DNA of 45,817 bases from Candidatus Altimarinota bacterium. Lineage in GTDB: Bacteria; Patescibacteriota; Gracilibacteria; JANQMV01. Both the position numbers and the translations under genes were made by a program. Location: NCBI GenBank assembly GCA_028279865.1, contig JANQMV010000011.1:1-45817 (forward strand), given 5' to 3'. This document shows, one piece after another, positions 1,239 to 27,633 of the stretch (position 1 is its first letter; every line of letters starts with the position of its first letter). Under the pieces are notes generated by a model, which saw nothing but the letters and a program-made list of their open reading frames with translations, had not been told where the DNA came from and ran no database searches.

Positions 1239-1267
1239 GAGCAACCCAAAATGGTTGCTCTTTTTTT
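1239..1267 (+). terminator. Rho-independent terminator
   Basis: Perfect 8-bp stem GAGCAACC/GGTTGCTC (1239-1246 with 1253-1260), a 6-nt loop and a run of seven T. It ends whatever is transcribed from upstream on the plus strand, and it rules out the ATG at 1251 as a natural start for the next gene because that ATG sits in the hairpin. Confidence 0.9.
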
Positions 1268-1289: not shown

Positions 1290-2147
1290 ATGAAATTAAA
1301 CTTAAAATATTGGAGCTTATTATATTCACTGCTGTTTCTTTTTGTTTTTTTCTTTTTTGCTGAATATAAAAAAGTTTATTCTCAATTTTTAGAAATTCAT
1401 TATTTAGATGTTGGACAAGGTGATGCAAGCTTAATCATAACTCCGGAGAATCAAAAAATCCTCATAGACACAGGACCTGTCGGAAATTTAAATCAAAAGT
1501 TTAAAAAATATCTTTCTTTTTTTGATAAAGAAATTGATCTTTTTATTTTAACTCATCCCGACTCTGACCACATCGGAGATGTTTTCAATCTTTTAAAGAG
1601 TTTTCAAATTAAAAAAATTGCTTTACCACAAAATTTTCAAAACAAAACTAATTTTAACCTTTTGTTAAAAGAAATTAATAGAAAAAATATCCCTGTTTTG
1701 TTTGTTAAACAAAACAATGATTTACAAATAGGTCAAAATACTTTTATAGATTTTATTTACCCTTTTTCAAATTCGTCAATACAAGAACAAAATGAATTTA
1801 AAAATTCTTCCCTCGTGTTTAAGATTCAATATGGTCATGTTTCATTTTTTTTCAGCGGAGATGCAGAGAAAAAACAAGAAAAATTAATCGTATTAAGCAA
1901 TTTTAATTTAAAGTCAAATGTTTATCAAGCTGGACATCATGGAAGCAAAAGTTCTTCAAATCAATTTTTTATCCAAAATATTCAACCGCAAAAGACTGTT
2001 ATCTCCTCTTCAAAAGATAACCCATTTGGTCATCCTCACGAAGAAATCATTTTACGCTTGAAAAAACTAAAAAGCGAAATTTATCAAACTTCAAAAGAAG
2101 GTGATTTAAGTTTTTATACAAACGGAAAAAATATCTGGAAAAAGTAA
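1290..2147 (+). CDS. Stand-alone ComEC-type metallo-beta-lactamase-fold hydrolase
   Basis: A 285-residue protein corresponding to the C-terminal hydrolase domain of ComEC/Rec2. It opens with a hydrophobic segment (about residues 8-23) that should anchor or export it, so the domain likely faces outside. Next comes HYLDVGQGDAS, the typical start of this domain, then the metal motif THPDSDHIGD (about 88-97), FSGDAE, and GHHGSKSS near residue 215. In competent bacteria this domain is thought to degrade the non-transported DNA strand. The only ComEC in this window (26170-27633) lacks this domain, so the two may work together. Start: the ATG at 1290 is chosen because an earlier ATG at 1251 lies inside the terminator hairpin. 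No Shine-Dalgarno is evident. The next gene follows after 81 bp on the same strand. Confidence 0.85.
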   Translation: MKLNLKYWSLLYSLLFLFVFFFFAEYKKVYSQFLEIHYLDVGQGDASLIITPENQKILIDTGPVGNLNQKFKKYLSFFDKEIDLFILTHPDSDHIGDVFNLLKSFQIKKIALPQNFQNKTNFNLLLKEINRKNIPVLFVKQNNDLQIGQNTFIDFIYPFSNSSIQEQNEFKNSSLVFKIQYGHVSFFFSGDAEKKQEKLIVLSNFNLKSNVYQAGHHGSKSSSNQFFIQNIQPQKTVISSSKDNPFGHPHEEIILRLKKLKSEIYQTSKEGDLSFYTNGKNIWKK

Positions 2148-25213: not shown

Positions 25214-26029
25214 ATGCAAACGATCAATCTTCCCTTTCTAAAAAAAGAGCTGCGCAAGCTAGGCTTAAGTGCTAAAAAAGCCTTTGGGCAGAATTTTCTC
25301 GTTAACCAAAATATGCTGCAAAATATTTGTGAAGCTGCTGCAATATCTTCTAATGAAACGATTATCGAAATTGGTCCCGGCCCCGGAGGCTTAACACAAT
25401 ATTTAGTTAAACAAGCACAAAGATTAATCACCATCGAGCTTGACCCTGATATGATTGCTTTATTGCAAAATAATTTGGGCAAGATTGATAACTTGGAAGT
25501 TATAAACATCAATGCCCTTGAATATATTCCTAAAGATGAAAATTATAAAATTGTTGCCAATATTCCTTATCACATTACCTCTCCGTTACTCAGGCATTAC
25601 CTTCTTGAAGTAGACAAAAAACCCTCACAGGTTGTTTTGATGATTCAAGATGAAGTTGCCAGAAAAATTACTGACCCGAAAAATAATTCAGTCCTATCTT
25701 TACAAGTGAAAGTTTTTGGAAAACCTGAATATTTGTTTAAAGTTCCTAAAGAAGATTTTTACCCTGCACCAAAAATTGATTCTGCTGTAATTTCGATTAA
25801 GGCTTTTGAAAAACCTCTGGTTGCAAAAGACAAATTAGAAATATTTTTTAAAACCGTAAAAATAGGTTTCAGTCAAAAACGCAAAAAATTAATGAATTCT
25901 TTTTTAGCCAATGGTCGTTTTGACAAAACAGAGTTAGAAAATATTTTCCAAAAAGCCGGAATTGATTCCAATCGTCGTCCGCAGACTTTGTCAATTGAAG
26001 AATGGAAGAATTTGGCGACATTTTTTTAA
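25214..26029 (+). CDS. rsmA: 16S rRNA (adenine1518-N6/adenine1519-N6)-dimethyltransferase
   Basis: A 271-residue SAM-dependent methyltransferase (KsgA) that dimethylates two adjacent adenines near the 3' end of 16S rRNA during 30S maturation. KKAFGQNFLVNQNML opens the protein; motif I is IIEIGPGPGGLTQYL (about 53), motif II ITIELDPDMI, and the catalytic motif IV is ANIPYHITSPLL (about 114). YPAPKIDSAVI and GFSQKRKKLMNSF in the C-terminal domain are also typical. ATG start, no Shine-Dalgarno. Divergent from the GT-C gene across 240 bp, and followed by a terminator. Confidence 0.95.
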   Translation: MQTINLPFLKKELRKLGLSAKKAFGQNFLVNQNMLQNICEAAAISSNETIIEIGPGPGGLTQYLVKQAQRLITIELDPDMIALLQNNLGKIDNLEVININALEYIPKDENYKIVANIPYHITSPLLRHYLLEVDKKPSQVVLMIQDEVARKITDPKNNSVLSLQVKVFGKPEYLFKVPKEDFYPAPKIDSAVISIKAFEKPLVAKDKLEIFFKTVKIGFSQKRKKLMNSFLANGRFDKTELENIFQKAGIDSNRRPQTLSIEEWKNLATFF

Positions 26030-26169: not shown

Positions 26170-27633
26170 ATGCCCTCAATTTATCTAAAAGTCGCCCTAA
26201 TTAGCTTCATCATTGGAATTGGAATTTTGCCTCTCTTGTCGCCCCTTTCAGCAAATTTGGTTGTTATTTTTTTAATTCTAACCTCCATTTTAATTTTCTT
26301 TTTGCGTAAGCAAAAAGTTTTAAAACTAGTCTTTATCGCTCTTTTTTTCATACTAATTAGCAGCTTACGCATACAATTGAATCAACACACTGCCACGACA
26401 CAAACGATTGATTTTTACAATGACACAAAAAAGAAGATTACTTTCATCGGCTACATTTGTGAAGAGCCGGATTTAAGAATTGATAAAGGAAAATATACAA
26501 TTTGTGCACAAAAAATTATTTTTAAAAACAGTATTCAAAAAACTCAGGGAAAAGTTTTGATAAGTCTGAAGCGTTATCCTGCTTATCAATATGGAGACAA
26601 GCTTAAGCTGGTAGGAAGTTTAAAAACACCAGTAGAATTTGAAGATTTTAGCTATCGCAATTATTTATCACGCTATCAAATCTTTAGCGTAATGTATACT
26701 CCGCAAATTCAGATTTTGGAGAAGAATACGGGCAATTTGTTCTATGCAAAAATTTTTGCTTGGAAAAAAAAGTTAGAAGACAAAATTAGCCAAATCTTTA
26801 CCGATCCAAGCAGTAGTTTTTTGGCGGGACTTTTGATTGGTTCTAGAAGAGGTATTCCTGAAAACATTATGGAAGCGTTTAATATAACCGGCTTAACGCA
26901 TATTATTGCAATTTCCGGTTATAACATTACGATTATCATTGTTTTTATTATGGGGATGCTGAGTTTTTTGCCACGTAAAATAAGTTTTTATATGGCACTT
27001 GTTGGTATTGTGATTTTTACAATTTTTGTTGGTGCTTCAGCGGCAGTTGTGCGTGCGGCAATTATGGGTATATTGGGCTTAATTGCTTTGCAAAAAGGCA
27101 GACAAACAGATGTGACTCTTTCTATTTTAATTACAGCAACGTTGATGATTGCTTATAATCCAAAGATACTTTGGTATGATGTTGGTTTTCAGTTATCTTT
27201 TTTGGCAGTTTTGGGATTGGTTTATATTGCACCTTTTTTTGAAAAATGGTTTGAAAAAATTCCGCAAACACTTGGTTTGCGAGAGGCGTTAATGATGACC
27301 TTGGCAGCGCAAGTTACGGCTGTTCCGATTATTTTATTAAACTTTGAGAGACTCTCTTTGATTGCTCCGCTTGCCAATATTCTTGTTGCTCCTTTTATTC
27401 CACTGGCGATGTTGTTTGGTTTTATTGCTGTTTTGATCAGTTTTCTTAGTCTTAATTTAAGCCTTTTCTTTGGTTTTTTTGCTTATATTTTTTTGGAAAT
27501 AATTTTAATCGTAGCGAAATTCTTAGCCAAGGTACCTTGGGCTTCGGTAGAGGTCGAAAATATTAGTGTTTTTATTGTCGTATTTTACTATTTGCTTTTA
27601 ACATTTTTTGTTTATAAGAAAACAAAAAAATAA
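26170..27633 (+). CDS. comEC: ComEC/Rec2 DNA-uptake channel without the hydrolase domain
   Basis: A 487-residue membrane protein that would form the inner-membrane channel for single-stranded DNA uptake. It has the N-terminal helices, the DUF4131/OB-fold region (about 30-190; FIGYICEEPDLR, YGDKLKLVGSL, FSYRNYLSRYQI), and the Competence domain (about 210-480) with SFLAGLLIGSRRGIP, ITGLTHIIAISGYNITII and LWYDVGFQLSFLAVLGLVY. It then stops after one last helix at FFVYKKTKK; full ComEC proteins continue with a metallo-beta-lactamase domain that is absent here but encoded separately at 1290-2147. ATG 26170 is preferred over a TTG at 26107 that lies in the terminator tail. Confidence 0.9.
   Translation: MPSIYLKVALISFIIGIGILPLLSPLSANLVVIFLILTSILIFFLRKQKVLKLVFIALFFILISSLRIQLNQHTATTQTIDFYNDTKKKITFIGYICEEPDLRIDKGKYTICAQKIIFKNSIQKTQGKVLISLKRYPAYQYGDKLKLVGSLKTPVEFEDFSYRNYLSRYQIFSVMYTPQIQILEKNTGNLFYAKIFAWKKKLEDKISQIFTDPSSSFLAGLLIGSRRGIPENIMEAFNITGLTHIIAISGYNITIIIVFIMGMLSFLPRKISFYMALVGIVIFTIFVGASAAVVRAAIMGILGLIALQKGRQTDVTLSILITATLMIAYNPKILWYDVGFQLSFLAVLGLVYIAPFFEKWFEKIPQTLGLREALMMTLAAQVTAVPIILLNFERLSLIAPLANILVAPFIPLAMLFGFIAVLISFLSLNLSLFFGFFAYIFLEIILIVAKFLAKVPWASVEVENISVFIVVFYYLLLTFFVYKKTKK

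Follow-up and report, generated by a model that had tools for sequence, protein, structure and literature searches.

Where ComEC is made in one piece, its nuclease domain lies outside, and almost half of the sequenced ComEC proteins are without this domain, what becomes of the second strand in such organisms being described as an open question (passages of PMC8579336). The nuclease of ComEC is more active in vitro when it and the OB fold are parts of one chain, and a nuclease for the non-transforming strand may also come as a separate membrane-bound protein, EndA (both from passages of PMC12455585). For Helicobacter pylori, the relevant passages of PMC5031224 report that no further protein closely related to the hydrolase domain was found. 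The ComEC family occurs in 86% of CPR genomes, with a fusion to the metallo-β-lactamase (MBL) domain in only six, according to part of PMC6744442. In the survey of PMC6299819, as described in sections of that paper, domains were scored on the channel protein alone.

The DNA analyzed here, referred to as the window, is a 45,817-nt stretch from a genome of Candidatus Altimarinota bacterium (Patescibacteriota, class Gracilibacteria). The initial annotation had proposed that ComEC is split in it between two genes, and both open reading frames (ORFs) were found where it had placed them, 24.0 kb apart and both on the + strand (Table 1). Domain mapping by profile, proposed there as a check, placed the OB fold and the Competence domain on one ORF and the MBL hydrolase on the other. 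In the channel gene, the Competence domain (PF03772) scored 182 bits against a cut-off of 23 and DUF4131 scored 77.4 bits against a cut-off of 31.6, and the protein, which ends in a basic tail, matched positions 67 to 412 of ComEC_Rec2 at 81.5 bits. The hydrolase ORF is a Lactamase_B match that covers the last third of ComEC_Rec2 (profile positions 426 to 663, 146.5 bits). It consists of a short start, a single helix and then, without any intervening part, a ComEC-type metallo-hydrolase fold with an intact active site, much as its earlier description as a separate membrane-anchored hydrolase had it. Because the first ATG of this ORF, at 1251, falls within a terminator-like hairpin, we prefer the previously given start at 1290.

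Just upstream of the hydrolase gene, at the contig edge, lies an insertion sequence (positions 1 to 1013) with inverted ends, within which a Mutator-family transposase is encoded at 172 to 987. The ORFs flanking the hydrolase match Transposase_mut and NTP_transferase/Hexapep (a sugar nucleotidyltransferase), and no DUF3006 neighbor was found among them. The gene immediately 5′ of the channel gene, in the same orientation, encodes a ribosomal RNA adenine dimethylase (25214 to 26029).

Table 1. Coordinates of the two ComEC-type genes and their features in the window
Feature	Coordinates	Strand	Length or basis
Terminator-like hairpin with T tract, immediately 5′ of the hydrolase start	1239..1260	+	
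ComEC-type metallo-hydrolase, membrane-anchored, proposed nuclease subunit	1290..2147	+	285 aa
N-terminal transmembrane helix of hydrolase, residues 5-26	1302..1367	+	Hydropathy
Metal-binding motif HPDSDH of hydrolase, residues 89-94	1554..1571	+	Alignments
Asp191 of hydrolase, within FSGDAE	1860..1862	+	D in 115/115 aligned hydrolases
HHGS motif of hydrolase, residues 216-219	1935..1946	+	Conservation among 115 hydrolases
ComEC channel subunit, OB fold + Competence domain, C-terminal YKKTKK	26170..27633	+	487 aa
DUF4131/OB-fold domain of channel, residues 25-182	26242..26715	+	Domain search
Competence domain of channel, residues 221-484	26830..27621	+	Domain search

The channel aligns with residues 12 to 487 of the 801-aa solved ComEC 30bt, residues 18 to 280 of the hydrolase align with residues 520 to 789 of the same protein, and hydrolase residues 5 to 62 align weakly (10.9 bits) with residues 513 to 568 of PDB 9vc6. 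Judged by alignment, the two parts laid end to end tile one-piece ComEC with the domain order kept, and the cut would fall before the last helix of the one-piece protein, so that this helix goes with the hydrolase. In annotated ComEC/Rec2 proteins (746 to 881 aa) the hydrolase occupies the last third, and one Selenomonadales ORF (L062), examined as a control, matched both the channel and the hydrolase queries. The MBL domain of the window is not on the channel chain and sits on a separate ORF 24 kb away; neither part (146.5 and 81.5 bits) reaches the full-length TIGR00361 score of 190 bits.

Conservation was counted over 115 hydrolases, that is, 118 minus 3 of under 230 aa. H89, D93 and H94 are present in 114 of them, D191 in all 115, H216 in 113 and S219 in 107, and the position of D91 holds H or D in most. 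The window hydrolase has H89, D91, D93, H94, D191, H216 and S219, and it deviates at two near-invariant positions, with K171 in place of N and Q213 in place of K. A hydrolase that is aberrant, with nearly all ligand residues missing, is that of genome G088. The HPDSDH motif matches H598-x-D600-x-D602-H603 of M. glycerini ComEC, and, from the order of the motifs, Asp191 probably corresponds to metal ligand D700 of that protein. Passages of PMC12455585 report that the corresponding M. glycerini residues are required for nuclease activity, to which D600 contributes, and that the analogous Legionella residues are required for transformation. A hydrophobic leader segment was found in 114 of the 115 hydrolases; 86 of them have a higher net charge ahead of the leader than behind it and 16 a lower one, and the channel tail is net positive in 91 of 118 cases and negative in 12. 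These charges point to a cytoplasmic location of both new ends, which would place the hydrolase outside.

The genome from which the window comes (1.48 Mb, 95.8% complete) has a single Competence domain and a single close relative of the window hydrolase. A full-length ComEC elsewhere, which the initial annotation had named as the finding that would overturn the split, was not found in these 1.48 Mb. ComEC_Rec2 also had a third and weak match (C27; 21.5 bits, at profile positions 451 to 513, in a 642-aa frame), which appears to be a distant MBL protein. DprA is present, as are several type IV pilus (T4P) ATPases and a ComF relative that scores below its cut-off, and a transformation pathway is therefore plausible in this genome.

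The same genome also showed unusual use of TGA. UGA is known to encode glycine in Gracilibacteria and Absconditabacteria, as set out in parts of PMC8080830 and PMC8629427. Within the window, 20 of the 23 long frames are without TGA and the other 3 have it only near an end, and none of the 25 ATG ORFs of at least 250 aa ends in TGA, compared with 3 of 55 in 20 other stretches. All seven T4P-ATPase matches contain in-frame TGA, one such codon occupying the place of the Walker A glycine in PilT, and further cases were seen in a cNMP-binding protein, a pseudouridine synthase and an epimerase. A tRNA(UCA) at L217:4485-4561 fits the glycine rule as given in part of PMC8629427, and a gene for release factor 2 is found on C59. 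The contigs of these observations in the window genome (G000) are C43 (L206, L232), C50 (L233), C59 (L236) and C40 (L231). UGA thus seems to be partly used as glycine; either the reassignment of this codon is at an intermediate stage or the binning is mixed.

A scan of genome contigs with the channel as query gave two distant loci. To see the two genes in relatives, we turned to an even sample of 145 genomes of the phylum. The channel was found in 136 and the hydrolase in 112 (53-row profile A1, E 1e-10), 4 of the 112 being weak, partial or decayed matches (G016, G082, G088, G121). The co-occurrence suggested earlier as a check held throughout this sample: all 112 hydrolase genomes have the channel, and profile A1 found no hydrolase in the 9 channel-less genomes (Fisher p 6e-7, kinship ignored). 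No hydrolase was detected in 24 of the 136 channel genomes. Outside the class of the window, 85 of 102 hydrolase genomes encode the hydrolase immediately 3′ of the channel, in the same orientation; adjacency is spread over 45 of 56 families, and in the other 11 the genes are never adjacent by the limit used. Loci with both genes were read at the sequence level in 97 of these 102 genomes; in the other five the genes are about 5 kb apart (G089) or on different contigs (G062, G099, G133, G153). A fused channel-hydrolase ORF was found in none of the 97 linked loci, and just 10 of the 97 pairs share a frame. The intergenic gap is −60 to +100 nt in 82 of the 97, and 67 of those 82 overlap, 13 of them by 4 nt, the exact overlap (not the adjacency) depending on the rule by which start codons were set. 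Such overlapping neighbors are the pattern that would be expected of translationally coupled subunits. The only reversed order among the 97 linked pairs, with the hydrolase upstream of the channel, was seen at L182 (G117).

Apparent fusions were also followed up. Seven of the 145 genomes passed the full-length cut-off (L063 to L066, G078, G111, G112), and in each case the sequence holds two ORFs. The candidate in G070 (L067), just under that cut-off, and that in G145, at first taken for one 1391-aa frame, likewise proved to be split.

Because it is seen across the phylum sample, the split is not peculiar to the window genome. Within a sample of 60 genomes of the window's class, the channel was found in 58, the channels of some members having many in-frame TGA codons. 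The hydrolase was found in 41 (G016 weakly), with the window hydrolase (P0001) as the single query at E 0.001, a search that could miss diverged hydrolases in the class. By TIGR00361 score, none of the 60 has a full-length ComEC. The two genes occur together in 40 genomes and are neighbors in none of them, as counted by eye comparison of match tables; 38 of the 40 have them on different contigs, and in the single-contig genome G045 they are about 975 kb apart. Separation of the two genes is a trait of the window's class, and the split itself extends across the phylum sample.

Relatives with the hydrolase and no channel had been put forward as a reason to abandon the two-gene proposal. The phylum sample contains none among its 112 hydrolase genomes, and in this respect the proposal stood; in the class sample no channel was detected in one of 41, G039 (130 contigs), which counts against it. 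Four congeners of G039 (G019, G029, G047, G055) carry both genes. In class families f7, f11 and f14, P0001 matched no sampled member (e.g., G006, G010, G013), and the channel is present in all sampled members except G021; one f7 genome, G038, has a weak ComEC_Rec2 match (21.7 bits, 298-aa frame). Since the hydrolase is undetected in 24 of 136 channel genomes of the phylum, and in the class the channel is found in 58 of 60 genomes and the hydrolase in 41, the channel can do without the hydrolase, which tells against a strict partnership.

We consider it most likely that channel and hydrolase make up a two-subunit ComEC in which the hydrolase serves as nuclease subunit. The two-subunit uptake machine put forward in the initial annotation finds support in the adjacency, gene order and co-occurrence seen in relatives, the window genes themselves being 24 kb apart. 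Besides the genomes in which only one of the genes was detected, several points weigh against it: the lack of neighboring pairs in the class, the two deviating residues of the window hydrolase, the profile scores of free-standing hydrolases, which exceed those of fused domains, and trees of the two proteins that agree in part only. In the arrangement that we infer, which extends to the topology, the formation of a complex, the nuclease activity and the choice of strand, the channel protein would supply the OB fold and the membrane channel, and the hydrolase would supply a metal-dependent nuclease, tethered to the external face of the membrane by its own helix, which would substitute for the last helix of one-piece ComEC. 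The OB fold would bind the double-stranded DNA as it arrives, the nuclease subunit would break down one strand, and the channel would let the other pass on to partners of the ComF and DprA type.

The hydrolase might instead be a surface-anchored nuclease of the same pathway that shortens or breaks down DNA outside the cell, be it for uptake or as food, and is not a subunit of the channel. The complete lack of neighboring pairs in the window's class and the persistence of the channel in 24 of 136 genomes without a detected hydrolase would fit such a role, and separate transformation nucleases are known, EndA of pneumococcus among them (passages of PMC12455585). We regard it as unlikely, because the domain is of the ComEC type, its helix is in line with the last ComEC helix, and 85 of 102 non-class relatives encode the hydrolase right after the channel, mostly overlapping it. 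An artefact, with a single gene divided by a frameshift, an assembly break or a mis-called stop, is barely conceivable: L063 to L067 do have both parts in one frame with at least one stop between them, but in the window 24 kb separate the two, none of the 97 loci is fused and only 10 of the 97 pairs are in the same frame.

A further alternative is that the hydrolase belongs with free-standing ComEC-like proteins that are not known to be linked to DNA uptake, for example those whose genes adjoin DUF3006 on plasmids in Bacilli, Deinococcus and haloarchaea. Hydrolases of this sort are matched well by the patescibacterial profile, five of six free-standing examples adjoin or lie near DUF3006, and Haloferax and Methanosarcina controls match ComEC_Rec2 (E 0.001) and not the Competence domain. 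The window hydrolase, however, is flanked by a transposase and a sugar nucleotidyltransferase instead of DUF3006, its relatives are paired with the channel, and no hydrolase was detected in the nine channel-less phylum genomes, making this alternative highly improbable. The plasmid examples with DUF3006 beside or near the hydrolase come from Geobacillus, Exiguobacterium, Natrialba, Priestia and Deinococcus (L207, L208, L210, L211, L212); in Monoglobus (L216) no DUF3006 was found within the stretch examined. The hydrolase beside DUF3006 is possibly a separate two-gene system.

The split of ComEC is a real observation and not a chance one, and the two-gene form, which recurs across the phylum sample, is a variant of a known machine. 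Channel and hydrolase distances are correlated (r 0.65 over 111 pairs, after 7 of 118 pairs, including the aberrant one of G088 [p_L176], were dropped for length or decay), the best of 500 permutations reaching 0.18; common ancestry alone would give part of this correlation. The channel and hydrolase trees are not in full agreement: both place G002 and G044 outside the main class clade, but only the hydrolase tree does so for G015, G025 and G035, and only the channel tree puts three non-class rows inside it. In a larger, quick hydrolase tree of 126 domains and 11 outgroups (5 of them fused), from which 3 short hydrolases were excluded, the nearest rows to the window are class members, without a well-supported branch, and the deep forks are not settled. 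The profile built from the relatives scored free-standing Bacilli hydrolases at 268 to 290 bits and the hydrolase domains of fused ComEC at 140 to 213 bits. Either ComEC was split at the base of the phylum or close to it, or it was never fused there. A reconstruction given in part of PMC6299819 has a Competence-only ancestor, which fits the view that the two were never fused. Tentatively, and with more doubt than conviction, the two-gene ComEC could be an old arrangement that predates fusion, not a broken fusion, with the phylum keeping the nuclease as a detachable subunit; if so, the degradation of a strand could be gained, lost or regulated without any change in transport.

For the fate of the second strand in a large phylum, a nuclease subunit with a gene of its own, in many genomes the next one after the channel gene, is a concrete and testable candidate. 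A nuclease thought to be missing in this small-genome bacterium and in numerous relatives may simply be encoded elsewhere, and surveys that score the domains of the channel protein alone would miss it. A Saccharibacterium is transformable and requires comEC for this (part of PMC10633639), so that a natural two-piece ComEC would be usable for biochemistry and genetics. A limited literature search, without most subscription papers and without bioRxiv preprints, returned no report of a separate, coupled hydrolase gene, and there is some indication that such a gene is previously unreported.

Among the known systems, the ComEC-like hydrolases beside DUF3006 are also free-standing and of the ComEC type, but their neighbor is DUF3006 and not a channel. 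EndA of Streptococcus pneumoniae is likewise a separate nuclease, whereas here it is the ComEC-type domain itself that is separate. In the short ComEC proteins of H. pylori and of the CPR (fam000603), the channel likewise ends before the hydrolase; unlike in H. pylori, a separate gene here supplies the hydrolase. With one-piece ComEC/Rec2 (TIGR00361; 30bt, 9vc6), the window shares the OB fold, the Competence channel, the MBL nuclease and its ligand motif, but it distributes them over two polypeptides, with the OB fold and the nuclease on different chains.
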